This document shows positions 9,927-45,232 of a stretch of 64,000 nucleotides of DNA, piece by piece. Position numbers and translations under genes: made by a program. The notes beneath the pieces were generated by a model. It was not told where the DNA came from. It did no database searches and worked only from the letters and a program-made list of their open reading frames with translations. The first letter of the stretch is position 1. Each line of letters opens with the position of its first letter. The stretch is taken from the NCBI GenBank assembly GCA_014871385.1, contig CM026423.1, positions 757,308 through 821,307 on the forward strand. Direction: 5' to 3'. The stretch comes from Ceratodon purpureus (lineage: Eukaryota; Streptophyta; Bryopsida; Pseudoditrichales; Ditrichaceae).

Positions 9927-10211
9927 TGTGCCGGGTTAAGCGAGCTCAACCAGAATCCAAATGTCTTCTCTCCTGTCGAAATATTCGCTACAAGGCCGCC
10001 CTTGAACCAAGCATCTAATCCACCTGATACATGTACGCACCTGCAAACCCGAAACATCAGACACGAAACACGAATCCCCTGTCAAACCCTAAACGTCAAA
10101 CCCCCCCTTCGACAACCGCCGACGGAACCGCGTTTCAAACCTTGCAAATACAAGTTGGCAGCACGGCACAAGCACGTGCCAAGTAGCTCGAATCACTCCC
10201 CAAATTACACC

Positions 10212-13792: not shown

Positions 13793-14000
13793 CAGGGTTG
13801 TTCATGGGACAAAAGGACCTGTCCGTCCGTCCGGTCCGCTCGTCCGTCCGTTAGGGGTCAGGGGAGGTCCGTTTGACCAGGACTTACGGTTGACCACCCA
13901 AATGGTGAAATGGGAGTTACCTTGGCCACCTAGGATGCCACGCGTCTGACATGTCACCAAATATTGTTGACTTGGGGGATGACGTGGCTAAGAGGAAGGG
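13793..14000 (+). mobile_element. left terminal region of a hAT element (TIR and TCCGTCCG subterminal repeats)
   Basis: The sequence starts CAGGGTTGTTCATGGGAC, followed by repeated GTCCGTCC motifs. It matches the left end of the complete hAT element at 19069 over about 200 bp. The hAT transposase gene lies just inside it, so this is probably that element's 3' end. The preceding 8 bp are TGTATATC. I found no matching right terminus followed by TGTATATC in the window, so the full element is not delimited. Confidence 0.7.
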
Positions 14001-14265
14001 CGCCAACGCCTTGAGTGAGGGTGGCGCGAGCACGTGAGAGGGGGGGCGCGAGCGTCTTGGGAAGGGGGGGCGCGAGCGAGGGGGCGCGAGCGACTGGGAG
14101 GGGCGCGGGCGCCTGCGAGGGGGGGGGGGCGCGAGCGCCTTTGATGGTGGGGGGGGCGCGAGCGCCTGCGATTGCAGGGGGGCGCAAGCAAGGGGTTTGG
14201 GGTGGGGGCGCGAGCGCCTGCGAAGGGGGGGGCGCGAGCGCCTGCGAAGGGGGGGCGCGAGCTGA
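14001..14265 (+). repeat. G-rich minisatellite array 1 (GCGCGAGC core)
   Basis: Irregular units of about 20-30 bp are built from GGCGCGAGCGCCTGCGA plus a run of 6-9 G. It lies between the hAT terminus and the 3' end of the transposase gene. The G runs could form G-quadruplexes. Long frames across it (Ala/Pro/Arg-rich) are compositional artefacts. Confidence 0.85.
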
Positions 14266-14434
14266 AAACAAGAATCAACCACTGAAGGAAATTAAGACAC
14301 TACTGAATTTTTCATAGTGACATAAATGAGAGAAGTTTCAATTCATGTCGAAACAAAATTACATTCAATAGCCTTAGCTAATGTTTTATGGACATTGACT
14401 AAGGTTAACATATAAGTATCTACGTATAAAATTT

Positions 14435-14438
<4 letters not shown>

Positions 14439-14479
<41 letters not shown>
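14439..14479. repeat. (TA)n microsatellite
   Basis: About 20 TA dinucleotides lie in the region downstream of the transposase stop codon. Confidence 0.9.
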
Positions 14480-14484
<5 letters not shown>

Positions 14485-14571
14485 TTTTTGTGTTTTTTTA
14501 AAATTATTTTGGAGACATATATATTATACTTTCTCTATATAACTTCTATATGTAATATGCTAATAGATGTA

Positions 14572-17500
14572 TTATTTTTTTTTGTTTTTTTTGGCGGTGC
14601 GCCGCTCTGGATTCCTTCGAGTACCGGGCTTACCCAATGGTACTCTTACAACAATGTCTTCATCATCAGGTGCTTCTTCACGGCTATCTTCTGATGAGTA
14701 ATATCCTTCTGAGGATTTCGACCCCTCGTCATCTCCATCTCCCCCCTGATTAGGCACATACTCCTCCACCGTGGAATGAATGTTGCGAATTTCGTGGTCA
14801 ACTGTACCATCCACCACTGTGGTCACAATTCTTTTGATCTTCCGTCTTTTGGTCTTATCGGTGATTCCGTCCACATTCATTACGGGTAATCTACGTTTAC
14901 CCAGAGCCACAGGTACAGACGGGGTAGTTCCAACAGTATATCCTGAAAAAAAAGGGCGAACGTTTGTTGGACCTTTCCGTGACCGTATCACTCCATGACG
15001 CGTCGTAGAAGGTCCAGCTGGTAGACTTCGTCCAGAAGAAGTGAGTGGAATGCTTGTATTCGGTGTTGGAGTTAATGAACCATGCCCAGTAGAAGTGCTT
15101 GAACGAGGTGGGGGGGGGTCGACCCAACCCTGCAAGTACTGCTCCGATTGAAGGTGTACTCTGGGGCAGGGGTGTTTGAAACAATCGGCCAATAGGAATT
15201 TCATCTTCTTGTCCATTTCTGACTGTCTCTGATTGTTCATTTCTTGGAGGGCTTTCATCCAAACCTCCAGACCTGATTGTTTCCTCAACATTTACTGGCA
15301 GAGTGGCCTGGAGTTGTTCAACTTCTTCTCCTCCCTCAACGTCTTCTGGAATTGGAATTTGCTCTCCCATGTTGTTACCCCCTTCTTCATTGTCATTGTT
15401 CGAAACGCTACGAACGGGGTAAATGTCATCATTATTGCCACCATTGTCGCTTTGATGCTGAGTCATTTCGACTTCAAATTCATCGTCAATATCATCGTCT
15501 GCCCGATCGTATGCGACCTCGCCTCTAGCTTGTATTTCATTGACAACGTGGTGAGGCGAAGTAGCTGCCTCTTCATCAAATCCTGCCCAGTCAAAAACTC
15601 CATTCGGCTGGTTAACGGGTTCAGTGCGTGGCATGTCACCATCACCATTGTCCACGGGTAACTCTGGATACTCATCATCCATAGTAGCAGGAGTGTAATG
15701 AACTCCACCGTCATCACCATCGCCTTCATTAACTTCAAGTCCGTCGTGGAATCCTTCATCTCCATCATCATCACATACGTCTTCATCGTACATGGCTGGC
15801 ACTTCTTCATCCGAGTCTTCGGAGAACGGTTGGTTCTCGTACCAAAGAACAGGATCCGCTCCACGTCGTTCTCGAAGGAGCTTACTGTTGGTGTAAATGT
15901 ACACCAAGTCCTCTGCCTTCTTCACGGCCAATCGGTTGCGAACCTTACTGTGAACAAAGGAATACATGCTCCAATTTCGCTCACATGATGATGCCGAGCA
16001 TGTTAACGAAAGGATGCGCTTTGCTATCAACGGTAACGCATCGCCCCCAACCCGCTGCCACCATTGATGAGGTAGCATCTTAGTCTGTCGAATGTTTGGG
16101 GCCTCCAAAGGGCTGAATGGACCGGTGCGTTCCTCAAACTGTGTTAGCTCGAACAACACAGTATCGTGGTCCAGTTTAAGGCACTCACTCAAATGAATTA
16201 GCACTTGCAGGAGTGCACGCTTCGCAGCACTGTTAGTCAATAGCTCGTGGCTCTCCGGGAAAATGTAGGGATTCAAAATGGCGCCTGCGTAATGGAGATC
16301 TGTCAACATCATTTTCCATCTCTTCGTAAAATGTTTCTCAAAGCGATCTGCTATAGCGGGGTCTAGGAAAAAAGGATCACCCCGTAGACGGAACACATGC
16401 TTCTTCAAATTATTCATGGCCAACCATGCCCTCCCCATTGCCGGTGTTTGTCCATCAAATGTCTTCAAGGTCACAACAGCCGGCTTCATAACATGCACAA
16501 GATTCTCACAACGTAACCAAAATGTCTCATCGAGAATGGTACTCCGTACTTGACATGCTAAGGTGTGAGCTCGATACCCGTTTGACCGATTGAATAGAGT
16601 ACCCACATATTCGTCCCATTTCGGACTGGCTACCACCTGGATTAGTGCCTCCCTCAGTTCAAGCAATCGAAAAATCATCAAGTACGAGCATCCAAATCTT
16701 GTCTCCGCTGGTAACAACAGAGACAACTTCGGGCTGAATTGGCGAAACAAAGCCATGGTGACATGACGGCGACGTATAAAATTTGGTATGCGTTTTGCCA
16801 AGGCAATCAGCTCTTTGAAGGTTGCTTCCTTCCCCCAATCTTCTAGTAAGAGGTCCATGATGTGAGCTGCACAACCTTGCTTGTAAATGTGAGGATAAGC
16901 TTCAACCACCTGGTCCATGGCTCCCAACATCGCACTAGCATTGTCGGAGCAAATCTGTACCACATTCTGCGGTCCAACTTCTTTGATGTACTCTTTCAAT
17001 TTCCCAGCTATGTATGCCTTTGATTTCTTGTACCCCGTTGTATCAATGGAACCCAGGAATATATCTCCTGCTGGACACACAAGCATGACATTCATCAACG
17101 GCCGATGAACAACGTTGTCCCATCCATCCGAGCAAATAGTTGCCCCGTACAAGCTAATACACTGCTTCGTTTTCTCCTCTATTCTCAACTTGAGAAGCTG
17201 CTTTGTTGGCTGGATGTGCTTGGTTCGCATTGCGTTGTATGCTGGTGGACGGTACACAAAACCCGCTTTCGATGTTGCCTCCACAGCAGCGATAAAAGAT
17301 GGATGCCTAACCACATTGAAAGGCACATTCGCTTCATAAAAATAGGACGCCCATTTCTCATCCAATTCATTGCGCATCCCAATCTGATAGGCCTCGGTAA
17401 AACTTTGTTGCCGCATAGATCTTGGTGTACATGAATCGCCTCTGCTTATAGGCGGAGTTGACTGAGACGGTTGAACTTGGGGAATCCTCTCCTCTTGGAC

Positions 17501-17857
17501 CTCCTCCGTTCTCTGAGGCACTTCCGTAGATTGCTCAGCAGGCATAGACTGGCTAGAACATGGTGCCAAGTGTGCCAAGTGTGCCTCGCCATCACCACCA
17601 TCAGTGCCGTATATCTCCGCATGTGTCATTCTTTTTGGTATTACATTACCACAATTGGCAAAGCGCCTAAATACGGCGGCGGGGGCCTTGGTACAATGAC
17701 TCTTGCTTGAACCTTCACCCCATCCATAGTGCTTGAAAGCTCTTTGTCGTTTATAACGAAAGGTGAAATTGCACCACACACATTTCACATGGTCCTTATC
17801 AATGAACGTCCACCACGGAGCCCACTCAGCCGTCGACTGACGCTGTTGACCTGCCAT
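14572..17857 (-). CDS. hAT-family transposase (BED finger, DUF659, hAT dimerisation), with an apparent frameshift
   Basis: I place the start at the ATG at 17857, because a TTTTTCAG acceptor lies just upstream and marks a 5'-UTR intron; the open frame itself extends to 17899. The BED zinc finger spans about residues 12-60 (C26, C29, then H43 and H54/C55). A DUF659/RNase-H-like core follows, with D244 (CSDGWD), D305 (CSDNAS) and the CxxH motif C329-H332. The C-terminal dimerisation region contains E626 (SSCERNWS) and HSKVRNRL. All three catalytic acidic residues are present. Past about residue 905 the frame changes at a run of nine G (15110-15118). The other frame continues with low-complexity, acidic and basic (NLS-like) sequence to a stop at 14572. 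The shift may be a homopolymer sequencing error or a real break. The protein should bind the TCCGTCC-rich ends at 13793 and 19069. Confidence 0.85.
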
Positions 17858-18054
17858 TCTCCGTGTCTCTGAAAAAGTACAATGATCTCCTGTCTGCAAG
17901 TGTTAGTATGACACATGTGAGAAAAAAATGGTATGTGTAGACATCAACCACAGGCCAATGTGATGCACATAGTCTCAAGCAAGGAGCCCACAAGGAGTTC
18001 CGGGACTAGAGGCCATGATTTCAAATGATATTGGGCTTGGGCTAAGTTGGTGGC

Positions 18055-18062
18055 ATTTATAC
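18055..18062 (-). promoter_or_regulatory. TATA box of the transposase gene
   Basis: GTATAAAT on the minus strand lies 6 bp from the edge of the G-rich array at 18068 and about 200 bp upstream of the chosen ATG. Its placement right beside a GCGCGAGC array is shared with the genes at 23139 and 26674. Confidence 0.6.
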
Positions 18063-18067
18063 TTGTG

Positions 18068-18470
18068 AGGGGGGGCGCGAGTTTCTCCAGGCGGGGGGGC
18101 GCGAGCGTGTGCAGGGGGCGCGAGTTTCTCCAGGTGGGGGGGCGCGAGCTTCTCTTTCCAGGGGGGGGGCGCGAGCTTTTCCAGGGGGGGGCGCGAGCTT
18201 CTCCAGGGGGGGCGCGAGCTTCTCCAGGGGGGCGCGAGCTTCTCCAACAGGGGGGGCGCGAGCTTCTCCGAGGGGGGGGGGGGGGGCGCGAGCTTCTCCA
18301 AGGGGGGGGGGGGGCGCGAGCTTCTCCAAGGGGGGGCGCGAGCTTTTTCAAGGGGGGGGGCGCAACCTACTGCAAAGGGGGCGCGAGCTTCTCAGAGGGG
18401 GGGCGCGAGCTTCTGGAAGGGGGGGGGGCGCGAGCTTCCAGAGGGGGGGGGGCGCGAGCGGGTTCAGGGG
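18068..18470 (+). repeat. G-rich minisatellite array 2
   Basis: Units are GGCGCGAGCTTCTCCA plus 5-13 G, some 18 in number. The array fills the space between the kinase 3' UTR and the transposase promoter. Confidence 0.9.
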
Positions 18471-18691
18471 GGAGGCACCCTTGTACGAGGGGCAGTCCCG
18501 GTGAATGGGCCATACAGTTTTTTCATTTTTTTTAGAAAACAATTTTTCATTCCATTACAAAACCAACAATACCATTTCATGTTCCACCAAGGCATGTATA
18601 CGCCGAAAAAAACGATTTATTAAAATATTCGAAATGTGCAAACAAGGCCACATAGGCAATCAAAATGTTCCAAACGTAATTCACTATGGAA

Positions 18692-19068
18692 CTACAATGT
18701 GTATCTAAAACAACCATTGGGAGCTTGGAAGTTGTAAGGGGGGCTCATCAAATCATTCACAACTTTTGCAAGTGAAAGCCTCTTTGTAGGATCTTCGTTA
18801 AGCAAGCCATCCAACTTTGATGAGAATACAATCTTTGAGATTGAATCCTTGAAGATTTCTGGGCAATCTTCTTCTCTCCATATCTTCTTTGCCAAATGGC
18901 CTACCGAAAATGCATCAGATAGCGTCGTACATGGATGCATCCTCTTCATGCGCTCCAAATTCCGTTCCTCATCATCTTTTTTGCCATATAAAAAGAACAA
19001 CTCCGGTGCAACTCCTACCCTCCTCTCCTTTACTTGTACAAGTTCATCGGGGTCCATCACACCATAAG
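18692..19068 (-). pseudogene. protein kinase gene, C-terminal part cut off by the hAT insertion
   Basis: This is the rest of the kinase gene that starts at 23139. Read from the target duplication, it gives 122 residues beginning VMDPDELVQVKERR. It contains the APE motif (VAPELFFLYG), an ...HLAKKIWRE... helix and the C-lobe arginine context NEDPTKRLSLAKVV, and ends in FRYTL. It is in phase with the N-terminal part once the element and one target copy are left out. It is separated from its promoter by 2.9 kb and is probably not translated. Confidence 0.85.
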
Positions 19069-19302
19069 CAGGGTTGTTCATGGGACATAAGGACCGGTCC
19101 GTCCGTCCGGTCCGCTCGTCCGTCCGTTAAGGGTCAGGGAAGGTCCGTTTGACCAAGACTTACGGTTGACCATCCAAATGGTGAAATGGGAGTTACCTTG
19201 GCCACCTAGGATGCCACGCGTCTGACATGTGTCACCAAATATTCCACATATAGAGTTGACACGGGGGATGACATGGCTAAGAGGAAGGGCACCAATGCCT
19301 TG

Positions 19303-19765
19303 GGGGAGGGGGGCGCGAGCTTCTTGGGGTGGGGGGGGGAGGGGGGGGCGCAAGCTTCTAAGGGGAGAGGGGGCAGCGCTTCTAGGAGGGGGGGGGGGGG
19401 GCGCGAGCTTCTAGGGGGGGGGGGCGCGAGCTTCTAAGGGGGGGGGGGGGCGCAAGCTTCAGAGGGGGGGGGGGGGCGCGAGCTTCTAAGGGAGGGGGGG
19501 GGGGGCGCGAGCTTCTAGGGGGGGGGGGCGCGAGCTTCTAAGAGAGGGGGCGTGAGCTTCTAGGGGGGGGCGCGAGCTTCTAGGAGGGGGGGCGCGAGCT
19601 TCTGAGGGGGGGGGCGCAAGCTTCTGAGGGGGGGGGGGGGGGGCGCGAGCTTCTGAGGGGGGGGGGGGGCTAGAGCTTATAGGGGGGGGCTAGAGCTTCT
19701 GGGAGGGGGGGCCAGAGCTTCTTGGAGGGGAGGCCAGAGCTTCCGGGAGGGGGGGGCGCGAGGTT
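19303..19765 (+). repeat. G-rich minisatellite array 3 (inside the hAT element)
   Basis: Units of GCGCGAGCTTCT plus 7-16 G, later drifting to CTAGAGCTT and CCAGAGCTT forms. The inner part pairs with array 4 as part of the large inverted repeat. Confidence 0.9.
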
Positions 19766-20361
19766 ATGGGTTTAGGGTGATTCTGGAGAACGGGGCATAC
19801 AATTGATATTTTATTTTTTCCGTTCCATTACAAAAATAACAATAAAATTTTATTCTCCACAAGAGTACATAGCCGTCAAAAAAAGATTTATTACGATTTT
19901 GCAAACGTGTAAACAAAGCCATATAGGCAATCAAAATGTTACATATGCAATTCACTATGGTACTACAATGTGCCTCTAAAACAACTATCAGGAGCTTTGA
20001 AGTTGTAAGGGGGACTCATCAAATCATCCACAACTCTTGCAAGTGATAGCCTCATCGTGGGGTCTTCGTTAAGCAAGCCATTCAACTTCGTTGAGAATGC
20101 AATCATTGACATTGTATCCTTGAAGAGGTATGGGCATTGTTCGTCCCTCCATATCATCTTTGCCAAATAGCCTACCGAAAATGCATTAGATTGCTCCATC
20201 CTGGAACTCTAAATTTTATATTATAATCCCCTTTCTCTTCCAATATTAATGTTTCATCTCTTAATGTTTTGTGCATACTTCCCTCTGTAATGATTCATTT
20301 ATTTATTTCTCTTCCAACCTTGTTCCACTCTATATTATTTTTTATTTTTTTATCTCTTCCA
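19640..20361. repeat. left arm of ~720-bp inverted repeat
   Basis: This arm is nearly identical to the reverse complement of 20828-21545. It includes part of array 3 and the kinase fragment. The kinase fragments of the two arms differ at about one base (a Thr/Met codon), which suggests a recent duplication or gene conversion. A 466-bp spacer separates the arms. Confidence 0.9.
19963..20199 (-). pseudogene. captured kinase 3' fragment, left copy
   Basis: The 78-residue frame matches the C-terminal 70 residues of the host kinase at about three quarters identity: VGYLAKMIWRDE against VGHLAKKIWREE, and LMSPPYNF shared. It is a fragment only, without the kinase core. Downstream 3'-UTR-like sequence is also shared with 18500-18690, so it was copied from the 3' end of a paralogous gene. 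Confidence 0.85.
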
Positions 20362-20827
20362 CTTTCAATATTAATATTTGTGTTTTTTTAACTCTTCCAT
20401 TTATTTTTAATTTTATATTAGAGCATTGTTTGTTTCTTCCGTACTAAATTGATTAATTATTCAAATTTTTATTATTCTTCCAACCTTCTTCCATCCCATG
20501 CTATTGATTTTATATTATCCCTTTCTCTTCTGATTTTAATGTTTGTTTTTTTGTTTTTTTTTTAATCTTTACCATTTATTTTTAATTCTATGTTAGAGCA
20601 TTGTTTGTTTCTTCCGTACTTAACCAATTAATTATCTAAATATTTTTAATTCTATGTTAATTCATTGTTTGTTTCTGGCATACTTCCTTTCATAATTATT
20701 TATTTCTCTTGCAACCTTCTTCCAGTCTATACTCTTAATTTTATATTTTTCCCTTTCTTTTTCAATATTAAAGTTCGATCTATTTTCATCTCTTCCATTT
20801 ATTTTTCATTTTATGTTTAAAAATAAA

Positions 20828-21545
20828 TGGAAGAGATAAAAAAATTAAAAATAGTATAGAGTGGAACAAGGTTGGAAGAGAAATAAATAAATGAATCATT
20901 ACAGAGGGAAGTATGCACAAAACATTAAGAGATGAAACATTAATATTGGAAGAGAAAGGGGATTATAATATAAAATTTAGAGTTCCAGGATGGAGCAATC
21001 TAATGCATTTTCGGTAGGCTATTTGGCAAAGATGATATGGAGGGACGAACAATGCCCATACCTCTTCAAGGATACAATGTCAATGATTGCATTCTCAACG
21101 AAGTTGAATGGCTTGCTTAACGAAGACCCCATGATGAGGCTATCACTTGCAAGAGTTGTGGATGATTTGATGAGTCCCCCTTACAACTTCAAAGCTCCTG
21201 ATAGTTGTTTTAGAGGCACATTGTAGTACCATAGTGAATTGCATATGTAACATTTTGATTGCCTATATGGCTTTGTTTACACGTTTGCAAAATCGTAATA
21301 AATCTTTTTTTGACGGCTATGTACTCTTGTGGAGAATAAAATTTTATTGTTATTTTTGTAATGGAACGGAAAAAATAAAATATCAATTGTATGCCCCGTT
21401 CTCCAGAATCACCCTAAACCCATAACCTCGCGCCCCCCCTCCCGGAAGCTCTGGCCTCCCCTCCAAGAAGCTCTGGCCCCCCCTCCCAGAAGCTCTAGCC
21501 CCCCCTATAAGCTCTAGCCCCCCCCCCCCCCGCCCTCAGAAGCTC
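20828..21545. repeat. right arm of ~720-bp inverted repeat
   Basis: Mirror copy of 19640-20361. A transcript across both arms would fold into a long RNA hairpin. Confidence 0.9.
20990..21226 (+). pseudogene. captured kinase 3' fragment, right copy (inverted)
   Basis: Same 78-residue fragment as at 19963-20199, on the opposite strand, with a single Thr-to-Met difference. Confidence 0.85.
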
Positions 21546-21722
21546 GCGCCCCCCCCCCCCCCTAGAAGCTCGCGCCCCCCCCCCCCTAGAAGCTCGCGCC
21601 CCCCCCCCCCCCCCCAAAGAAGCTCGCGCCCCTCCAAGAAGCTCTGGCCCCCCCTCCCAAAAGCTCTGGCCTCCTTCTCAGAAGCTCGCGCCCCCTTTGA
21701 ACTCGCTCGCGCACCCCTTTGC
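21427..21722 (-). repeat. C-rich (G-rich on minus) minisatellite array 4 (inside the hAT element)
   Basis: Inverted counterpart of array 3, with units read as AGAAGCTCGCGCC plus a run of C on the plus strand. Confidence 0.9.
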
Positions 21723-21927
21723 ATATGTGGAATTCCCCGTCATCGTTCGTTGTCCATGTCATGAATATGTTTCCCCTATAGGTAAGTTGTAAAAAAATGA
21801 AACTAACCCAGTAATTTTCCTCCTCCCCTCAATGCCCGATTATGTCCGGGGACCGACCGGTCCGTCCGTCCGTCCGTCCGTCCATGTCCGGAAATTTTGC
21901 CCATGTCCGTCCGATTAGACAACCCTG

Positions 21928-23139
21928 ACCATAAGGGGAGGCCTTGTTCTCAATGACTCTGCTTGCCACACCCCAATCGCACACACCAATATATACTTTA
22001 TCCTTGTCATGAGGTGGAAAGTGGAGTAGAATGTTGGATGGCGTTAAGTCGTTGTGGAGGATTTCAGCCTTATGGACTATGTCCATAACGTAGATGAGAC
22101 TCCACGCCAACATTCCCCGGTTCTTTCGGTAGGCAACAATTCTTTGGCACTCTTCCATGGGCATATCCCTCGACTTCAAAATTTCTTTGTAATCTATTGC
22201 CTCGGATGCCTTCTCATTTATCTTGAGGAAGTTGCGGAGGCAATCTCCATTCCACCACAGGGTATAAGCTTCCATGGTCTTAGCGCGAATGGCCCAAAAT
22301 TTTATCACACCCGGATGCTCTACGGGGTTAACCGTGGCCTCAATCGCCCGTTCCTCTCGCTTCTTCACTTCGGTTTTAGCCTTGGAAAGTTTTCCCGCAA
22401 ATTCTATGTGAATTGGAATTTTCTTCATATTGGCTATTCGCACTTTTCGCACTTTGCCATACCCCCCCTCGGCATTGAAGCCAGATAATGGCACAACCTT
22501 GGCCGTAACCGGAATCCATATCAATGCACCATACATGTGTGCTTCCAATGCTGAGTTCAATGCTTGCTCATTCCAAGGCATAATCTTTGTTTTCCCCTTA
22601 GAACATCTCTGACATGCCTCCTGAACCGTTGTCAGTTTTTGAATAAACACTTTGTCTTGGTTGCTCCATTCTTCGCCTTGTGGTTTCTTGACATGTGATT
22701 CAAACACATGAATGACATTTGTCGTAGCACTACTCACTTGTTGTGTCAACCACTTCGGGCTGTGAAAATACTTCGTCTTGCAATCCATGTACATCTCTGA
22801 TCCTTCCAATGCGCTCCAAAATTCCCTTTCCAAATCACGTTGGAGGTTGTAGATACCATTCTCTCCGTGATCAAGGTACATTGCCTTCAACATTCGTATG
22901 GTACGGGCCTTGTAGTACTCGACGGCCACCTTCCTGATGAAATGCGTATACTCCAATGGTGGATAACCGTCATCCTTCTCGTGCGCTGGTATACTCTTCT
23001 TCTTTTTACCCTTCGAGCTAGATGAAGGAGTAGAACCACTAGAACCATGAGGTGTTACGCAACTCATAGGGTCCACCGCATCTGGAGCATCCAAGTCCAC
23101 ATACATAGGCCGCTTGCCGGAGCCTTGTCTAGAAGACAT
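21928..23139 (-). pseudogene. atypical protein kinase gene, N-terminal part (split by hAT insertion)
   Basis: This gives 404 residues up to the insertion; with the 122 at 18692-19060 the protein would be 526. The N-terminus (1-60) is Ser/Lys-rich, and an uncharacterised helical region follows. The kinase domain shows a glycine loop GGYGKV (225-230), a probable ATP-binding K250 (FAGK), a catalytic loop HNDLTPSNILL (362-372) and CDWG (387-390) in place of DFG. HND for HRD and DWG for DFG make it atypical, but the Asp residues are kept. The APE motif lies beyond the insertion. The open frame runs on into the hAT terminus, adding about 30 foreign residues, so a truncated kinase lacking the C-lobe could still be made. 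No other lesion is seen, so the break looks recent. Confidence 0.85.
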
Positions 23140-23295
23140 CGCAAAGTAAATCCCTGAAAAAAAAATTCAACAACTTCCCCCCCCCGCCCCAATGAAGACT
23201 TCCCACATAAGCAGTTCCAAGCAAGGCGTGTTTTCACACGTCAGGACAAGGAACCGCAGTGGGAAGGAGTGAGGGGGGCGAGAGCTTCTCCCCAC

Positions 23296-23304
23296 CTTAT
23301 ATAG
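23296..23304 (-). promoter_or_regulatory. TATA box of the kinase gene
   Basis: CTATATAAG on the minus strand lies about 160 bp upstream of the ATG and a few bases from array 5. A T-rich TTTCAG acceptor about 15 bp before the ATG suggests a 5'-UTR intron. The same nonamer lies beside array 6. Confidence 0.65.
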
Positions 23305-23310
23305 TCCCCA

Positions 23311-23388
23311 CGGACCCGCTCGCGCCCCCCCCCTGAACCCGCTCGCGCCCCCCTGTACCCGCTCGCGCCCCCCCTATACCCGTTCGCG

Positions 23389-23439
<51 letters not shown>

Positions 23440-23550
23440 TACCCGCTCGCGCCCCCCCCACCCGCTCGCGCCCCTGTACCCGCTCGCGCCCATACCCGTC
23501 CGCGCCCCCCCCAACCCGTTTGCGCCCCCTCAGACACGCTCGCGCCCCCC
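23311..23550 (-). repeat. C-rich minisatellite array 5 with a ~47-bp C tract
   Basis: Units of ACCCGCTCGCGCC plus a run of C on the plus strand, upstream of the kinase promoter. The near-continuous C run at about 23390-23438 may be misassembled in length. Confidence 0.85.
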
Positions 23551-23749
23551 CCTTCCATTTGTTTTCGATCTCATTTTTTATTTTCTATTTCTCTTCTGGA
23601 AATAGTGAAATCTCTACACTACTTTCTAAGAGAAAAAAATAAAATAAAACAAATTAAAAAATACAAAGTATTGGGATTTTATACTTGCACAACCTCTCAT
23701 GCAGCTCTAGCCTCTCTTCCACTCCATGCTATTGATTTAATTGTAAAAC

Positions 23750-25620
23750 GTCTATCTCACAAACCAATTGCGTCGATCCCTTATTTATGATTCTTTATAA
23801 TATGTTAGAGCATTGTAGGATCCGTATGTACAATGCATTATATTTTTTATGTTATTAAACTGTAATCCTACGTATTTCCACACCATGCTATTCTTTTTAT
23901 TTTAATCCCTTTATCTCTTCCACTCCATGCTATTGATTTAATTTTATTTTTTCCGTTTATATGCCAAACCAATTGCATCGAGCCCTTCTTTATGATTCTT
24001 TATATTTTTAATTATATGTTAGAGCATTGTAGGATCCATATGTTCAATGCATTATATTTTTTATTTTTTTAAACTCTAATCGAACTCTCTTCCACACCAT
24101 GCTATTCTTTTTATTTTAATCCCTTTATCTCTTCCACTCCATGCTATTGATTTAATTTTATTTTTTCCGTTTATATGCCAAACCAAATGCATCGAGCCCT
24201 TCTTTATGATTCTTTATATTTTTAATTATATGTTAGAGCATTGTAGGATCCGTATGTACAATGCATTATATTTTTTATGTTATTAAACTGTAATCCTACG
24301 TATTTCCACACCATGCTATTCTTTTTATTTTATTCCTTTTATCTCTTCCACTCCATGCTATTGATTTAATTTTATTCCGTTTATATGCCAAACCAATTGC
24401 ATCGAGCCCTTCTTTATGATTCTTTATATTTTTATTATATGTTAGAGCATTGTAGGATCCATATGTTCAATGCATTATATTTTTTATTTTTTTAAACTCT
24501 AATCGAACTCTCTTCCACACCATGCTATTCTTTTTATTTTAATCCCTTTATCTCTTCCACTCCATGCTATTGATTTAATTTTATTTTTTCCGTTTATATG
24601 CCAAACCAATTGCATCGAGCCCTTCTTTATGATTCTTTATATTTTTAATTATATGTTAGAGCATTGTAGGATCCATATGTTCAATGCATTATATTTTTTA
24701 TTTTTTTAAACTCTAATCGAACTCTCTTCCACACCATGCTATTCTTTTTATTTTAATCCCTTTATCTCTTCCACTCCATGCTATTGATTTAATTTTATTT
24801 TTTCCGTTTATATGCCAAACCAATTGCATCGAGCCCTTCTTTATGATTCTTTATATTTTTATTATATGTTAGAGCATTGTAGGATCCATATGTTCAATGC
24901 ATTATATTTTTTATTTTTTTAAACTCTAATCGAACTCTCTTCCACACCATGCTATTCTTTTTATTTTAATCCCTTTATCTCTTCCACTCCATGCTATTGA
25001 TTTAATTTTATTTTTTCCGTTTATATGCCAAACCAATTGCATCGAGCCCTTCTTTATGATTCTTTATATTTTTAATTATATGTTAGAGCATTGTAGGATC
25101 CATATGTTCAATGCATTATATTTTTTATTTTTTTAAACTCTAATCGAACTCTCTTCCACACCATGCTATTCTTTTTATTTTAATCCCTTTATCTCTTCCA
25201 CTCCATGCTATTGATTTAATTTTATTTTTTCCGTTTATATGCCAAACCAATTGCATCGAGCCCTTCTTTATGATTCTTTATATTTTTAATTATATGTTAG
25301 AGCATTGTAGGATCCATATGTTCAATGCATTATATTTTTTATTTTTTTAAACTCTAATCGAACTCTCTTCCACACCATGCTATTCTTTTTATTTTAATCC
25401 CTTTATCTCTTCCACTCCATGCTATTGATTTAATTTTATTCCGTTTATATGCCAAACCAATTGCATCGAGCCCTTCTTTATGATTCTTTATATTTTTATT
25501 ATATGTTAGAGCATTGTAGGATCCATATGTTCAATGCATTATATTTTTTATTTTTTTAAACTCTAATGGAACTCTCTTCCACACCATGCTATTCTTTTTA
25601 TTTTATTCTAATATTAATAC
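23750..25620. repeat. 214-bp tandem satellite, about 9 copies
   Basis: Copies repeat every 208-218 bp (TTAGAGCATTGTAGGAT near 23803, 24021, 24232, 24440, 24654, 24867, 25081, 25295 and 25503). Neighbouring copies are nearly identical. Degenerate relatives (TTAGAGCATTGTTTGTTTC) fill the spacer of the inverted repeat at 20362-20827, so both come from one family. It is AT-rich and non-coding. Confidence 0.92.
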
Positions 25621-25979
25621 ACTAATTTTCTTGTAGTCAACTTTATATTATTCATGGTGCATTAGATCAGTATTCCGTTATGGGATATTTCAATTTCTAA
25701 CCACCATGACATTTATTCATCTTGATAACTTCTTTCATCCCATGTTATTCATCTCTTTTTATCCCGAGTCCCTTATTATAGTCATGATTGTTTTTCTATA
25801 ATTTGATTTCTCATCCCGAAATTATTCAAATCAATATTCCTTATTTTCATATCCCATTTTAATTTTTAATTTTTAATTTTATTTTAGAGAGAAATGGTGA
25901 AAAAATCCATTGCATTTGTTTTTATTATTGTCTTCCAACCTTCTTCAATGGTACTCCTAAGGAAATGAGAGTTTGTTTT
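25621..25979. other. AT-rich non-coding DNA
   Basis: No gene seen between the satellite and array 6. Confidence 0.5.
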
Positions 25980-26330
25980 AAGGGGGGACCCTCTCGCGCC
26001 CCCCCTTGATCCCGCTCGCGCCCCCCCATACCCGCTTGCGCACCTCCCCTGAACCCGCTCGCGCCCCCCCCCCCCATACCCGCTCGCGCCCCCCCATACC
26101 CGCTCGCGCCCTCCCATACCCGCTCGCGCCCCCCCATACCCGCTCGCGCCCCCTGCCTCGCTCGCGCCCCCCCCCCCCCCCCCCCCCCCGAGACCCGCTC
26201 GCGCCCCCCCCCCTAAACCCGCGCGCGCCCCCCCTTAATCCCGCTCGCGCCCCCCCTCAGCCGCTCGCGCCCCCCCGACCCCGCTCGCGCCCCCCCCGAC
26301 CCCGCTCGCGCCCCCCCCCCCCCCCCCCGA
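25980..26330 (-). repeat. C-rich minisatellite array 6
   Basis: Units of ACCCGCTCGCGCC plus 5-20 C. The array ends one base before a TATA box. Confidence 0.9.
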
Positions 26331-26339
26331 CTATATAAG
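26331..26339 (+). promoter_or_regulatory. TATA box of the 377-residue gene
   Basis: CTATATAAG abuts the C-rich array. The kinase gene has the same nonamer in the same setting. Confidence 0.65.
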
Positions 26340-26384
26340 TGAAGGGGGCGCCCTCCCCCCCCCACTTTTTTTAGCTCCACCTTG

Positions 26385-26560
26385 GCACTCAGGCCTTGAA
26401 CTACCTCACGGTGGCTTATTGCTGAGTACTTGGGTGGGGTCTACAGTATTTTGACAACGCCACGTACCAGCTTTCAGCCTTATTTTGTACGCTCATCCGG
26501 GAATTCGGGCCCTAAACTACCTCATGGTGGCTTATTGCTGAATACTTGGGTGGGCCACAA
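26385..26560 (+). repeat. direct duplication in the 5' leader
   Basis: Two ~50-bp copies (AACTACCTCAYGGTGGCTTA then TTGCTGARTACTTGGGTGG) lie about 118 bp apart between the TATA box and the ATG at 26674. Confidence 0.8.
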
Positions 26561-26673
26561 AGTATAGTTACAATACCATAATCAACCACGGAGGAAAATT
26601 TTAAAATCAATTGGGGGAAGTTTTGAGGAGTTGGTGTGTTTTTTAACACAGAAAACTTTACCAGTACACCACG

Positions 26674-27807
26674 ATGGAGGGAAACCCAGATCCGGCGGAG
26701 GAAAGGCCACTCACCAAGGCCGAAAAGAAGAAAATCAGAGATCGTGAACGGAAGCGTGGTGGCAAGAAGATGAAGAAGCGGCTCCATGTGCTGAACAACC
26801 CCACAAAGTTGGCATTTAGAGGTTGGCAAGATGAGCCGGAACCGTGGAAATATTCCACATGCGAGGAATTCATTGAGTGGTGCCACATCACAAAAATATT
26901 TCCACATGATCGGCACAGAAAACACAGGATCTCAGACAAGGCTAACCTCTATTATTGCTTGAATGCGGAGTTTGTTGAACGTTCTATACAAGTTTACCAG
27001 CATCTATACAAGCAACGATGTGTTGAACGCAATGAAGTACCATTGTTCATTTGCAGAATGGTGTATGCTGAGGTGGTGCTTCACAAAGTGGTGGATTGGT
27101 CCACCATCAAATCCACGCCGAGTGTTAGGGCGCCGACAGAGCGTGACATTCCCAAACAAAGGAAATACGCAGATGGTGGCCTGGGGAAAAAAATGAAGGA
27201 AAAAACACAAGTGCGGGAGCCTGATACAGCAGAGTCTGAACCAGATTCTGATTCCGATGGTCGTCGTGGAGAACGTCCACCACGTAGAATTGCAGCATCA
27301 GCAAATATGGCTGTAGAGCCTCTAATGAACCATCCAGCGGACGTCATAGAACCTCACGACGATGCGAACAACATCTTCATGGAAAACGATCCAAATACGG
27401 CAGCTAATTTGGACGTGGTCGGAACTGAACCTACGATGGTTCTTGGCATGCCGGTTCTAATTAGAAATGACCAGTCTAACCAGACCGAGGAGGTCGGGGA
27501 GTTACAATTACAGCTAATAGAAAAGGATGGCTTCATTGCAGAGTTACAAGAGACCATCCGAAAACTACGATTGGAATCAGCAGCAAAAGATGCAGTAATA
27601 TCAGATTTGCGCAATCAATTGCAAGAACGAGAAAGACCTCAGTCTTCTCAAGCCAATGATATACCTGTAGTTCAAGATCCAATGTTGGTGGATGAATCTT
27701 ACATCAACAACACGGTTGATGTTGCAACGGCCGGTGTGTTGGAGAATATTTCCACTCCAGCAAAACGACGACGAGTTGGAGTGATATTGCCTATATCAGG
27801 TAACTAA
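26674..27807 (+). CDS. uncharacterised nuclear-type coiled-coil protein
   Basis: The frame has 377 residues. Residues 10-40 are strongly basic (KAEKKKIRDRERKRGGKK). A compact region (45-145) is rich in Trp, Cys and His and may be a folded domain, but I do not recognise it. An acidic serine tract follows at 185-197. A coiled coil runs from about 272 to 320 with clear heptads, and KRRR near 366 is a likely NLS. A CACAG acceptor about 20 bp before the ATG suggests a 5'-UTR intron. The end of the frame, CAGGTAACTAA, could itself be a splice donor, so a further exon is possible. Array and TATA layout link it to the kinase and transposase genes, but its function is unknown. Confidence 0.65.
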   Translation: MEGNPDPAEERPLTKAEKKKIRDRERKRGGKKMKKRLHVLNNPTKLAFRGWQDEPEPWKYSTCEEFIEWCHITKIFPHDRHRKHRISDKANLYYCLNAEFVERSIQVYQHLYKQRCVERNEVPLFICRMVYAEVVLHKVVDWSTIKSTPSVRAPTERDIPKQRKYADGGLGKKMKEKTQVREPDTAESEPDSDSDGRRGERPPRRIAASANMAVEPLMNHPADVIEPHDDANNIFMENDPNTAANLDVVGTEPTMVLGMPVLIRNDQSNQTEEVGELQLQLIEKDGFIAELQETIRKLRLESAAKDAVISDLRNQLQERERPQSSQANDIPVVQDPMLVDESYINNTVDVATAGVLENISTPAKRRRVGVILPISGN

Positions 27808-29319: not shown

Positions 29320-30830
29320 CGTAGCCCAGGGCATAATGCCTCGGTTTAGGGTACACCCGCTGCGGCTCCCAGTCTGGTGGTTTTATGTTGATTTGTAAGT
29401 TGTATCGTGTGCCCATCTCGCATCCCCGCAGCCCTCGGCATACTGCCTCGGTGCCCAGGACTTGTGCCGGAGGCTCGAATTGTAGGCTTCTTCTGTTGAT
29501 TTGTAAGTTGCATTGTGTGCCCCTTGAGCAGCCTCGCAGCCCTTGGCATCAAGCCTCGGTGCCGAGGACTTATGCTGGGGGCTCCTGCTCTGGTCTTGTA
29601 ATGTTGATTTGTAAGTTGCATTGTGTGCCCCTTGAGCAGCCTCGCAGCCCTTGGCATCAAGCCTCGGTGCCGAGGACTTATGCTGGGGGCTCCAATTTTG
29701 GTCTTGTTATGTTGGTTTGTAAGTTGCAATGTGTGCCCCTTGAGCAGCATCGCAGCCGTTGGCATGAAGCCTCGGTGCCGAGGACTTATGCTGGGGGCTC
29801 CAACTCTGGTCTTGTTATGTTGATTTGTAAGTTGCATTGTGTGCCCCTTGAGCAGCCTCGTAGCCCTTGGCATGAAGCCTCGGTGCCGAGGACTTATGCT
29901 GGGGGCTCCAATTTTGGTCTTCTTATGTTGATTTGTAAGTTGCATTGTGTGCCCCTTGAGCAGCCTCGCAGCCGTTGGCATGAAGCCTCGGTGCCGAGGA
30001 CTTATGCTCGGGGCTCCAATTTTGGTCTTGTTATGTTGATTTGTAAGTTGCATTGTGTGCCCCTTGAGCAGCCTCGCAGCCGTTGGCATGAAGCCTCGGT
30101 GCCGAGGACTTATGCTGGGGGCTCCAACTCTGGTCTTGTTATGTTGATTTGTAAGTTGCATTGTGTGCTTCCCTAGCAGCCTCGCAGCCCTTGGCATGAA
30201 GCCTCGGTGCCGAGGACTTATGCTGGGGGCTCCTGCTCTGGTCTTGTAATGTTGATTTCTAAGTTGCATTGTTTGCCCCCCTAGCAGCCTCGCAGCCCTT
30301 GGCATGAAGCCTCGGTGCCGAGGACTTATGCTGGGGGCTCCAATTTTGGTCCTTTTTTGTTCATTTTAAAGTTGCATTGTGTGCCCCTCTAGCAGCCTCG
30401 CAGCCCTTGGCTTCATGCCTCGGTGCCGAGGAGTTATGGTGGGGGCTCCAGCTCTGGTCCTTTTATGATGCATTATGAGTTGCATTGTGTGCCCCTTGAG
30501 CAGCCTCGCAGCCCTTGGCTTCATGCCTCGGTGCCGAGGACTTATGCTGGGGGCTCCAATCTTGGTCCTTTTATGATGTATTATGAGTTGCCTTGTGTGC
30601 CCCTGGAGCAGCCTCGCAGCCCTTTGCATAATGCCTCGGTGCCGAGGACTCCCGCTGGGGGCTCCAATTTTCGTCTTGTTATGTTGATTTGTAAGTTGCA
30701 TTGTGTGCCCCTTGAGCAGCCTCGCAGCCCTTGGAATAATGCCTCGGTGCCGAGGACTTACGCTGTGGGCTCCTCCTCTGGTCTTTTTATGTGGATCAGT
30801 CCTCCATAGGGAACTAAGACTGACCAATAT
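29320..30830 (+). repeat. 108-bp palindrome minisatellite in copy A, array I
   Basis: About 13 units, period 108 bp, each with CCTCGGTGCCGAGG (6-bp palindrome arms) and the conserved flank CCTCGCAGCCCTTGGC. Because 108 is a multiple of three and the unit lacks stops, long frames open on both strands. The array lies in the intron between exons 29140-29238 and 30854-30928. Confidence 0.93.
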
Positions 30831-31009
30831 ATGTTTTTTCTCTTTTGGAACAGGTGCCACGAAAAGGTGGTCCAGTAAGCATGAGCGGAGGAGAGGATGA
30901 CGTCGACTCAACACCAACCAACAATCAGGTATGACCATCGTCTACGCTGGGTTCTGTTCAATAGAGTGTGCTTAATGAATGTGTTATTCGATTGTACCAG
31001 GAGACCATT

Positions 31010-33055
31010 AAGATACCCTCGCAGCCCTTGGCATAATTCCTCGGTGCCGGGGACTCCCATTAGGGGCTTTCACTGTAGTCTTTTTCTGTTGATTTTTAAG
31101 TTGCATTCTGTGCCCCTCAAGCAGCCTCGCAGCCCTTGGCATCAAGCCTCGGTGCCGAGGACTTATGCTGGGGGCTCCGATTTTGGTCCTTTTCTGTTCA
31201 TTTTAAAGTTGCATTGTGTGCCCCATGAGCAGCCTCGCAGCCCTTGGCTTCATGCCTCGGTGCCGAGGACTTATGCTTGGGGCTCCAATTTTGGTCTTGT
31301 TATGTTGATTTGTAAGTTGCATTGTGTGCCCCTTGAGCAGCCTCGCAGCCCTTGGCATCAAGCCTCGGTGCCGAGGACTTATGCTGGGGGCTCCAACTCT
31401 GGTCTTGTTATGTTGATTTGTAAGTTGCATTGTGTGCCCCCCTAGCAGCCTCGCAGCCCTTGGCTTCATGCCTCGGTGCCGAGGACTTATGCTTGGGGCT
31501 CCAATTTTGGTTTTGTTATGTTGATTTGTAAGTTGCATTGTGTGCCCCTTGAGCAGCCTCGCAGCCCTTGGCATGAAGCCTCGGTGCCGAGGACTTATGC
31601 TGGAAGCTCCAATCTTGGTCCTCTTATGATGTATTATGAGTTGCATTGTGTGCCCCCCTACCAGCCTCGCAGCCCTTGGCTTCATGCCTCGGTGCCGAGG
31701 ACTTATGCTGGGGGCTCCGATTTTGGTCCTTTTCTGTTCATTTTAAAGTTGCATTCAATGCCCCATGAGCAGCCTCGCAGCCCTTGGCTTCATGCCTCGG
31801 TGCCGAGGACTTATGCTTGGGGCTCCAATTTTGGTCTTGTTATGTTGATTTGTAAGTTGCATTGTGTGCCCCTTGAGCAGCCTCGCAGCCCTTGGCATCA
31901 AGCCTCGGTGCCGAGGACTATGCTTGGGGCTCCAATTTTGGTCTTGTTATGTTGATTTGTAAGTTGCATTGTGTGCCCCCCTAGCAGCCTCGCAGCCCTT
32001 GGCTTCATGCCTCGGTGCCGAGGACTTATGCTTGGGGCTGCAATTTTGGTCTTGTTATGTTGATTTGTAAGTTGCATTGTGTGCCCCTTGAGCAGCCTCG
32101 CAGCCCTTGGCATGAAGCCTCGGTGCCGAGGACTTATGCTGGAAGCTCCAATCTTGGTCCTCTTATGATGTATTATGAGTTGCATTGTGTGCCCCCCTAC
32201 CAGCCTCGCAGCCCTTGGCTTCATGCCTCGGTGCCGAGGACTTATGCTGGGGGCTCCGATTTTGGTCCTTTTCTGTTCATTTTAAAGTTGCATTCAATGC
32301 CCCATGAGCAGCCTCGCAGCCCTTGGCTTCATGCCTCGGTGCCGAGGACTTATGCTTGGGGCTCCAATTTTGGTCTTGTTATGTTGATTTGTAAGTTGCA
32401 TTGTGTGCCCCTTGAGCAGCCTCGCAGCCCTTGGCATCAAGCCTCGGTGCCGAGGACTATGCTGGGGGCTCCAACTCTGGTCTTGTTGTGTTGATTTGTA
32501 AGTTGCATAGTGTGCCCCCCTAGCAGCCTCGCAGCCCTTGGCATCAAGCCTCGGTGCCGAGGACTTATGCAGGGGGCTCCAATTTTGGTCTTGTTATGTT
32601 GATTTGTAAGTTGCATTGTTTGCCCCTTGAGCAGCCTCGCAGCCCTTGGCATCAAGCCTCGGTGCCGAGGACATATACTGGGGGCTCCAATTTTGGTCCA
32701 TTTATGATGTATTCTAAGTTGCATTGTGTGCCCCCCTAGCAGCCTCGCAGCCCTTCGCTTCATGCCTCGGTGCCGAGGACTTATGCTGGGGGCTCCAATT
32801 TTGGTCCTTTTTTGTTCATTTTAAAGTTGCATTGTGTGCCCCTCTAGCAGCCTCGCAGCCCTTGGCTTCATGCCTCCGTGCCGAGGACTTATGCTTGGGG
32901 CTCCAATTTTGGTCCTTTTATGATGTATTCTGAGTTGCATTGTGTGCCCCTTAAGCAGCCTCGCAGCCCTTGGCGTAATGCCTCGGTGCCGAGGACTCCC
33001 GCTGGGGCCTCCAGTTTTGGTCCTCTTATGTTCGTTTTAAAGTTGCATTGTGTCC
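31010..33055 (+). repeat. 108-bp palindrome minisatellite, array II with higher-order repeat
   Basis: About 19 units lie in the intron before the exon at 33108. A block of five units (about 539 bp) is repeated almost exactly at 31476 and 32015, including a shared one-base deletion (GAGGACTATGCT), so blocks were copied as a whole. Confidence 0.93.
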
Positions 33056-34077
33056 ATGGTCTCCATCGTTTTAAAATTGCATCGTGTACATGGTCTCCAT
33101 TTTCCAGGCTGATGGCGGGATGGATGCTCCCCACTTTGAAGAGGACACGCCAGGAAACACCGAAAAGGACGAGGACTCGGTTGATGATGACGACGCTTTC
33201 ACTGGAGATCTAGACGAGATTCGATCTCGCCAGAAGCTTAACTCTGTCACTACGATTTGGAGTCTGAGAGTGAAGCCTTTTGCTTATTTACGTATGGACA
33301 TTCCTCTGTGCAGAATGCAGCCAATGCCTATTGTGCGCCCGATGATGCAGTGCGACCTGTCGAAACTGGAAGAGGAGTTCTCGCACGGGTACCGGGAGGG
33401 GGCATCTGTGTTTTACGTGTCAATTACAGATGAAGGAGGTAGGACTAGGGAAGTTTCGGCTGCTGATAAGGCCAGATGGGGCCCTATCTGGAAGAGGAAG
33501 AACGATTAGTTTAATGATTTCTTGCTATCGATCCCGGAGCTTGCAGGATATGCAGATCTAATGTTCTTTGTTTGTGACGGTAATCATCGTTGTCAAGCAT
33601 GGTTAAACCATATTGAGCGCCTACACAAGGGCGATGAATCGTGGCATTACCTTGTGGACTCTATCCTTCTGGACACAAAGGGTAGAATCGGGTTAGTCAT
33701 GCAGGTCATGCACAACATCAACAAGTAAGTTTCCTAAAGTCTTAATCGTGGTTATCTTTCCATTATTAAGATTCCTTCTGTATTTCATGTTAGTACATTA
33801 AATCTGGTTCTGTTGTACCTGTGCCAGGCATACCGAGGACAGTCATGTGAAGACGAACGATGTTCACACCCTTTTCAGAGTTCAAAAGTACGGCCTCATG
33901 CCCTTCGAGCAATTTAAGGAGCTGTTGTCCCCCTCGGATGTAAAGAGATGCAGGAAAACTAAGCACGGAACGTGGTACACATTACCTGTGAATGTATTCA
34001 CTAGTTTCATTTACCAGGTACACCATGAGATTCAACATCTCTAATTGTTTTATAAATTTCCCTCCGTATGTGCTCTT

Positions 34078-34800
34078 TGATGCAACCTCGGAGCCCTTGG
34101 TTTAATGCCTCGGTGCCGACGAGCAATGCTGGGGGCTCCAACTGTGGTCACTGCATGTCGTTATTACTCTCAGCGTTAGAGCCCTGTGAAGCAGCCTCGC
34201 AGCCCTTGGCTTAATGCCTCGGTGCCGACGAGCAATGCTGGGGGCTCCAACTGTGGTCACAGCATGTCGTTTTTACTCTCAGTGTTAGAGCCCTGTGAAG
34301 CAGCCTCGCAGCCCTTGGCTTAATGCCTCGGTGCCGACGAGCAATGCTGGGGGCTCCAACTGTGGTCACAGCATGTCGTTTTTACTCTCAGTGTTAGAGC
34401 CCTGTGGAGCAGCCTCGCAGCCCTTGGCTTAATGCCTCGGTGCCGACGAGCAATGCTGGGGGCTCCAACTGTGGTCACTGCATGTCGTTTTTACTCTCAG
34501 TGTTAGAGCCCTGTGAAGCAGCCTCGCATCCCATGGCCTAATGCCTCGGTGCGGAGGACTTATGCTGGGGGCACCAACTCTGCTTAGTGCATGTCTTCTG
34601 TCTTCTCAGTACTCGAGCCCTTTGAAGCAACCTCGCAGCCCTTGGCTGAATGCCTCGGTGCCGAGGTCAAATGCTCGGGGCTCCAATGCTGGTCACTGCA
34701 TGTATGTCGTTTCCTCGGTTCTAGAGCCCTTGGCTTCATGCCTGGCAGCACTTGCCATAATGCGTTGTTGCCGAGGACTAATGCTTGGGGCACCACCTCT
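34078..34800 (+). repeat. 109-bp variant of the palindrome minisatellite, array III
   Basis: About seven units occur in the intron 34018-34898. The core is GCCTCGGTGCCGACGAG, so one palindrome arm has changed, and the linker TGTTAGAGCCCTGTG differs from arrays I and II. Confidence 0.9.
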
Positions 34801-34958
34801 GATTACTGCATTCCGTTTTTTTGGTGAGTATTGTCGAATCCCCACTTCTCGCTATGATTCGTTCTATCATAATTTGACAAGTTTCTCGCTTGGTGCAGCA
34901 TGAGATCAGCAGAGCAGCAGACGAGGGGCTACGTGCTTACCTCGAGAATGCTGAGGGT

Positions 34959-42789: not shown

Positions 42790-43510
42790 GAGCATCCTCT
42801 TAAAGCAACCTCGCAGCCCTTGGCATAATGCCTCGGTGCCGAGGACAGTTGCTGAGGGCTCCAGCTCTGGTCAGTGCATGTAGTTCTTCATGTTTATTCT
42901 AGAGCCCTGTGAAGCAACCTCCCAGCCCCTGGCATAATGCCTCGGTGCCGAGGGCTTCTGCTGAGGGCTCCAACTGTGATGAGTGCATCATGTTCGTCTT
43001 GCTGCTCTGGAGCCCATTGAAGCAACCTCGCAGCCCTTGGCATAATGCCTCGGTGCCGAGGACCGTTGCTGAGGGCTCCAGCTCTGGTCAGTGCATGCAG
43101 TTCTTCATGTTTGTTCTAGAGCCCTGTGAAGCAACCTCGCAGCCCCTGGCATAATGCCTCGGTGCCGAGGACCGTTGCTGAGGGCTCCAGCTCTGGTCAG
43201 TTTATGTAGTTCTTCATGTTTGTTCTAGAGCCCTGTGAAGCAACCTCGCAGCCCCTGGCATAATGCCTCGGTGCCGAGGACTCCTGCTGAGGGCTTTAAC
43301 CGTGATGACTGCATAATGTTTTTCTTGCTGCTCTGGGGCCCATTGAAGCAACCTCGCAGCCCTTGGCATAATGCCTCGGTGCCGAGGACCCATTCTCAGG
43401 GCACCAGCTCAGTGCATGTAGTTCTTCTTGTTTGTTCTAGAGCGCTTTCTAGCTACCTCGCTGCCCTTGGTACAATGCCTCGGTGCCAATGACTACTGCT
43501 GGTTCAGGCT
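42790..43510 (+). repeat. palindrome minisatellite, array IV
   Basis: About seven units of 106-110 bp lie in the copy A intron 42759-43541, with the same CCTCGGTGCCGAGG core and a GAGGGCTCCAGCTCTGGTCAG flank. Confidence 0.92.
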
Positions 43511-44774: not shown

Positions 44775-45232
44775 TATCTTCAGCCCTTTGAAGCAACCTC
44801 GCAGCCCCTGGCATAATGCCTCGGTGCCGAGGGCTCCTGCTGAGGGCTCCAACTGTGATGAGTGCATCATGTTCTTCTTGCTGCTCTGGGGCCCACTGAA
44901 GCAACCTCGCAGCCCTTGGCATAATGCCTCGGTGCCGAGGACAGTTGCTGAGGGCTCCAGCTCTGGTCAGTGCATGTAGTTCTTCATGTTTATTCTAGAG
45001 CCCTGTGAAGCAACCTCGCAGCCCCTGGCATAATGCCTCGGTGCCGAGGGCTCCTGCTGAGGGCTCCAACTGTGATGAGTGCATCATGTTCTTCTTGCTG
45101 CTCTGGGGCCCACTGAAGCAACCTCGCAGCCCTTGGCATAATGCCTCGGTGCCGAGGACAGTTGCTGAGGGCTCCAGCTCTGGTCAGTGCATGTAGTTCT
45201 TCATGTTTATTCTAGAGCCCTGTGAAGCAACC
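44775..45232 (+). repeat. palindrome minisatellite, array V
   Basis: Four units lie in the copy A intron 44729-45254. They alternate as a two-unit higher-order repeat of about 217 bp. Confidence 0.92.

Follow-up and report, generated by a model that had tools for sequence, protein, structure and literature searches.

A hAT derivative carrying a kinase inverted repeat and its very probable nesting in the cargo kinase gene of a related element in the moss Ceratodon purpureus

The locus and related transposon systems

Pairs of autonomous and non-autonomous hAT elements, such as Ac/Ds of maize, are characterized by 8-bp target-site duplications, short inverted ends starting with CAGGG and a transposase with a hAT dimerisation domain, and systems of this type also show deletion derivatives and nested insertions. 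Mu killer of maize is an inverted-repeat derivative of a transposon, and Pack-type elements carry a gene fragment within a non-autonomous element. Accessory genes occur in DNA transposons of fungi, namely in IS3EU (alpha-kinase, TET/JBP) and hAT7 (TET/JBP) (PMC12730594).

The locus analyzed here lies in a window (the whole stretch of DNA under study) of 64,000 nucleotides from Ceratodon purpureus. It resembles Ac/Ds in its 8-bp duplications, CAGGG-type ends, hAT dimerisation domain, deletion derivatives and nesting, but differs in the size of the complete family member (11.6-11.85 kb), in its kinase and RING genes and in the long internal inverted repeat of the derivative. The latter is, like Mu killer, an inverted-repeat form of a transposon; unlike it, the moss hairpin is amplified and mobile, is present in tens of copies and has no exact 21-nt match to the examined resident copies outside a minisatellite. 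The likeness to Pack-type elements is the gene fragment in a non-autonomous element, the difference being that the fragment here stems from the lineage to which the family's cargo gene belongs. IS3EU and hAT7 share with the moss element the presence of a kinase or regulatory enzyme as an accessory gene of a DNA transposon; the kinase of IS3EU is an alpha-kinase, whereas the moss element combines a Pkinase-type kinase with a RING protein in a hAT element with 8-bp duplications (PMC12730594).

We consider it very probable that a non-autonomous hAT derivative has inserted here into a larger member of its own family, a hAT element that carries a kinase and is truncated on the right, and that the kinase gene was the site of insertion. 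Most likely, the resulting nested pair is dead and has no regulatory function. The features of the locus are as follows.

13793..27792, no strand: larger hAT element of the three-gene family; its left end is intact, its right end absent here
14572..17857, minus strand: hAT transposase gene, its C-terminal part in another frame here (ORFs 14897-17902 and 14572-15291)
18069..18475, no strand: G-rich minisatellite (GGGGGGGCGCGAGCTTCT) in the transposase/kinase interval; the small element has similar arrays
18692..19068, minus strand: cargo kinase gene, 3' part beyond the insertion point; ORF ends in ...CFRYTL and is continuous in 20/20 paralogues
19061..19068, no strand: left target-site duplication, 8 bp, ACCATAAG
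19069..21927, no strand: non-autonomous hAT derivative with kinase inverted repeat, mapped onto the larger element
19750..20364, minus strand: left arm, kinase 3' end plus downstream sequence, with a 78-aa ORF at 19966-20199 (-)
20365..20824, no strand: A+T-rich spacer separating the arms, with 74% similarity of 20402-20528 to the larger element's 214-bp repeats
20825..21439, plus strand: right arm, the inverted copy, with an ORF at about 20990-21223 (+)
21928..21935, no strand: right target-site duplication, 8 bp, ACCATAAG
21928..23139, minus strand: cargo kinase gene, 5' part (Pkinase, E 3.2e-9; K, HND and DWG motifs)
23306..23552, no strand: C-rich minisatellite
23713..25605, no strand: 214-bp tandem repeats within the larger element, matched by the fetched copies
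25988..26328, no strand: C-rich minisatellite
26674..27792, plus strand: third gene of the larger element, truncated; complete in 4/4 extended copies (792-793 aa, RING finger)

The small element measures 2,859 bp, carries CAGGGTTGT at 19069-19077 (+) and 21919-21927 (-), and is flanked directly by the exact duplication. Its two arms, each of 615 nt and 99% complementary, are separated by 460 nt; with the G/C-rich minisatellite included, the inverted repeat covers 19501-20364 and 20825-21695 (879 columns, 94.8%), and folding of 19750-21439 gives an MFE of -1143.7 kcal/mol. The element interrupts the reading frame of the kinase between the DWG and APE motifs, a point at which the kinase is uninterrupted in all 20 fetched paralogous loci; in each of these, the two alignments overlap by 8 bases, the signature of an empty site with a single target copy. 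Such a structure is not a product of chance, and the assembly artefact that a preliminary description of this DNA had considered is unlikely, because all eight fetched small copies, from several chromosomes and with the window copy included, carry exact 8-bp duplications. MITEs are smaller than about 800 bp, and seven of the small copies (2859-3082 bp) lie above that class.

The observation made in the preliminary description is thereby confirmed: it had recognized a hAT element, the kinase inverted repeat inside it and its insertion into a related kinase gene, between DWG and APE. It did not mention the enclosing element, whose left end lies at 13793, nor the transposase (14.6-17.9 kb) or the amplified copies, and the host gene that it implied as the target proved instead to be cargo of a second, larger member of the small element's hAT family. 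The interpretation offered there is thus partly supported.

In the enclosing element, CAGGGTTGT recurs at 13793, and its first 471 bases align at 77% with those that open the small element. The transposase in the window has a DUF659 domain (E 7.8e-33) and a Dimer_Tnp_hAT domain (E 1.2e-6), the latter above the curated cut-off. The right end of this copy is missing, since homology to four complete copies from elsewhere in the genome stops at 27792 in all four comparisons. The left ends of the two elements differ at one base (13812 vs. 19088), where the four complete autonomous copies in the comparison have A and the eight hairpin copies T; some other left ends have T as well, for instance that at C6:17087612 adjoining a divergent transposase, on a contig (C6) that, judging from the name of the C. 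purpureus protein KC19_VG232100 (P0145), is probably the male V chromosome.

A three-gene family and its hairpin derivative

Genome-wide, at least 105 matches to the kinase (94-100% identity; 97 without stops) and at least 55 matches to the transposase (50 without stops) were found, both counts being lower bounds from the part of the candidates that was scored. A listed kinase match lies within 7 kb of 48 of the 55 transposase matches (counted by eye), the remaining seven being without one. Twenty autonomous loci were fetched, chosen because both a kinase and a transposase were listed for them; all have the left end and an intact kinase, and in 18 the transposase is 1094-1097 aa long. The four copies that were extended span 11,584-11,846 bp, end in ACAACCCTG, share CAGGGTTGT at both ends with the small element of the window and are bounded by exact 8-bp duplications. 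All four hold a transposase on the minus strand (1094 aa in three, interrupted in the fourth, L029), a 526-aa kinase on the same strand and, on the opposite (+) strand, a RING-finger protein of 792-793 aa. It is this joint presence of transposase, kinase and RING gene in complete elements with 8-bp duplications that identifies the kinase of the window as transposon cargo.

Judged from its sequence features, the family belongs to the hAT superfamily, with 8-bp duplications, a dimerisation domain and CA(G)GG-type terminal inverted repeats all found. Its kinase, putatively a catalytic one, retains the conserved Lys, the Asp/Asn of catalysis and the metal-binding Asp: in an alignment of 39 proteins, hand-picked from 105 related ones, K250 and N369 are invariant and D364 and D388 at least 90% conserved, with an HNN exception in one kinase (P0019). 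Mean pairwise dN and dS of the kinase are 0.0048 and 0.0155 in 20 copies (ratio 0.31), and the mean ratio for the transposase is 0.23 (12 copies of equal length). Searches for relatives returned 36 for the RING protein (query, its C-terminal 533 aa) and 38 for the transposase; among solved structures, the sole matches were weak ones to PRP4 kinase. In a search for kinase relatives beside transposases, viral_contigs gave none and genome_contigs three weak candidate matches. No paper on the element was found in the literature searched; the Ceratodon genome paper lay outside that search, and hence we do not claim that the element is undescribed.

The nested insertion itself is ordinary, and we see the more interesting finding in the surrounding family, a plant hAT with the unusual cargo of a RING protein and a kinase that is conserved at its catalytic residues and has a dN/dS not far above that of the transposase. 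This raises the question of why a transposon should need a kinase and a possible ubiquitin ligase, for instance for evading host silencing; somewhat speculatively, the two proteins might be accessory factors that serve the element, possibly against such silencing. A practical caution also follows for moss genomes, in which kinase-like sequences may be transposon cargo.

Mapped onto a complete large copy, positions 1-468 and 2489-2859 of the small element correspond to the left and right ends, 329-1126 to the kinase 3' region and 1927-2649 to the same region inverted. Thus, both ends are kept, the transposase and the RING gene are absent, and the kinase 3' end is present twice, in inverted orientation; by the overlaps of the mapping, the outer joins fall in G- or C-rich minisatellites and the inner joins at the spacer. 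The search for further copies that the preliminary description had proposed was productive, with 46 two-armed pairs and 19 single arms counted among 111 arm-like matches (at least 88% identity, out of 150 listed arm-peptide matches), these counts too being lower bounds; a few single arms have longer frames and might instead be remnants of kinase genes. An arm-junction pattern (up to 3 mismatches) gave 107 genomic matches and its reversed control none; the 100 matches listed comprise 82 in 41 convergent pairs and 18 unpaired. A left-end pattern (up to 2 mismatches) gave 352 matches, both kinds of element included. The derivative has been amplified with 8-bp duplications. One fetched copy, L003, lies in reverse orientation and has one changed base in its right end alongside an exact 8-bp duplication; an inversion of its spacer was considered and rejected, the orientation accounting for its swapped arms.

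Insertion of the family into itself is recurrent, since the case in the window is one of three among 28 loci examined. Autonomous copy L016 is inserted inside a hairpin element, its flanks matching positions 482-117 and 116-1 of that element, and L017 sits in the 214-bp repeats of a relative. For the remaining 18 autonomous loci, left flanks of 213-389 bases gave no sign of such nesting, nor did the right flanks of L028 and L029 or the flanks of L002-L008; the right flank of L030 has a 70-base A+T-rich match only. The arrangement at L016 (left flank; right stretch L036) is the reverse of that in the window. A second hairpin element with nearly identical arms, L002 (G000:C3:751990-754861), lies about 22 kb from the window copy; this proximity may reflect short-range transposition, and L004, on another chromosome, is about equally close in sequence.

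Origin and concerted evolution of the arms

Against the four complete resident copies, the identity of the derivative is 95.6-96.9% over its left 160 bp and 94.7% over its right 150 bp, but 86.0-86.9% in its kinase part. With P0002, a protein of a different data set, the arm peptide shares 83% identity, as against 75% with the resident kinase. By these comparisons, the arms derive from a kinase lineage different from that of the resident kinase. Searches with P0145, P0002 and the arm peptide revealed no intact parent kinase among the matches scored. The direct parent seems to be absent or decayed, because no frame of at least 343 aa exceeds 76% identity to the arm peptide (150 scored of 762 candidate matches); shorter frames at 80-96% identity may be its relics. 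Stretches fetched around three divergent candidates held a kinase in one case (82% to the arm) and none in the other two.

A plausible route would lead from a sister lineage to the derivative via breaks in the G- and C-rich minisatellites and an inverted duplication. The resident transposase would then move the product in trans, as suggested by ends that match at 94.7-96.9%, and gene conversion would partly homogenise the arms.

Arms of the same copy are indeed concerted. With an equal arm-peptide score taken as a proxy for equal sequence, 34 of the 46 pairs have equal-scoring arms (28/40 after removal of the pairs with both arms at the top score), and shuffling of partners (10,000 times) yielded 3.2 such pairs on average and at most 10. 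A variant occurs in 11 junction pairs and, in nine of these, is shared by both arms; the nine represent seven distinct variants (three pairs share one). Among the eight sequenced small copies, those that best match the one in the window, some variants are in both arms and others in one, and the arms differ by 0.97% on average within copies vs. 1.38% between copies; homogenisation is therefore partial. Independent formation of each copy is unlikely, because 28 of the 41 junction pairs lie 762-773 bp apart. Gene conversion is the simplest reading of this pattern, and the hairpin derivative offers a natural example of how one arm can homogenise the other when an inverted repeat is mobile.

Possible activities of the locus and its surroundings

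The preliminary description had proposed that the locus might produce small RNAs against a kinase family. In the manner of Mu killer, read-through from the kinase promoter would yield a hairpin RNA whose diced products silence the kinase-carrying family, either directly or once they spread into the kinase 5' half next to the hairpin; we judge this to be unlikely. The locus could yield silencing small RNAs, since its hairpin, a near-perfect stem with the MFE given above, is joined to a kinase 5' half that matches the residents: the 20 resident loci each share 981-1121 of its 1192 21-mers, and spreading would reach them. When up to two mismatches are allowed, the three copies tested match 98 (L013), 107 (L016) and 121 (L029) of the 550 arm 21-mers, and a shuffled arm has no 21-mer match below 6 mismatches. 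Exact matches to residents occur in the low-complexity minisatellite part (19501-19794; 3-61 of 274 21-mers, the locus with 61 probably being L016, which holds a hairpin-element flank), and the arms match other hairpin copies (350-550 of 550 21-mers in seven copies). But outside the minisatellite (19795-20364) none of the 550 arm 21-mers and none of the 547 24-mers occurs on either strand of the 20 resident loci (a single 19-mer is found in 19 of them), and all 16 arms of eight copies are likewise devoid of exact 21-mer matches to resident loci. Thus, the inverted duplication of Mu killer is present, and perfect identity of small-RNA length is absent outside the minisatellite in 20/20 resident loci; nor do at least 105 well-preserved kinase matches resemble an effectively silenced family, unless silencing is recent. 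The count of 0/550 exact 21-mers outside the minisatellite in the resident loci gives no support to silencing by small RNAs of perfect match; small RNAs that match imperfectly or spread may still act, and the silencing interpretation as a whole is weakened. We regard as decidedly improbable a wider role in which hairpin derivatives, kept near-perfect by arm-to-arm conversion, act on the kinase/RING hAT family through small RNAs that spread from the hairpin and could silence the cargo kinase.

The hairpin element might alternatively be a peptide-coding parasite, with its two outward-facing 78-aa ORFs for the kinase C-tail translated and interfering with the cargo kinase. The frame is stop-free in all 111 arm-like matches, 4.7% of single substitutions giving a stop, and the 101 differing pairs among 16 arms of eight copies have a mean dN of 0.0097 and dS of 0.0312; yet these values rest on about 10 variable sites, and an open frame may simply be inherited in copies that are young and partly converted. 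Selection on the ORF is thus suggestive at best, with too few substitutions, and this is a very improbable reading. Most improbable of all is a Pack-type capture, in which the target would be an independent host kinase gene and an element would have picked up its 3' end: the arms do derive from a kinase and lie inside the element, but the kinase has at least 105 genomic matches and is flanked by the hAT transposase and the RING gene inside 8-bp duplications in 4/4 complete copies, a co-location on which we rejected a host-gene target, and by sequence comparison the arm fragment belongs to the family's cargo kinase lineage rather than to a host gene.

Some further observations concern the window itself. 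The stop-free 78-aa frames of its small element, 19966-20199 (-) and about 20990-21223 (+), perhaps reflect youth or weak selection. At the gathering score, no RNA family was found in the window. A 926-aa ORF at 7155-9935 (-) is without a Pfam match and has a GTGKSRL stretch that, in our reading, resembles a nucleotide-binding loop. Arrays of an approximately 108-bp repeat (29383-33053, 34075-34820, 42803-43487 and 44782-45232) separate ORFs that look like the exons of a gene that was duplicated (43537-44271 and 57762-58463 are examples); those scanned had no Pfam match above cut-off. Finally, a 1523-aa ORF at 36681-41252 (+) has a retrotransposon gag domain.
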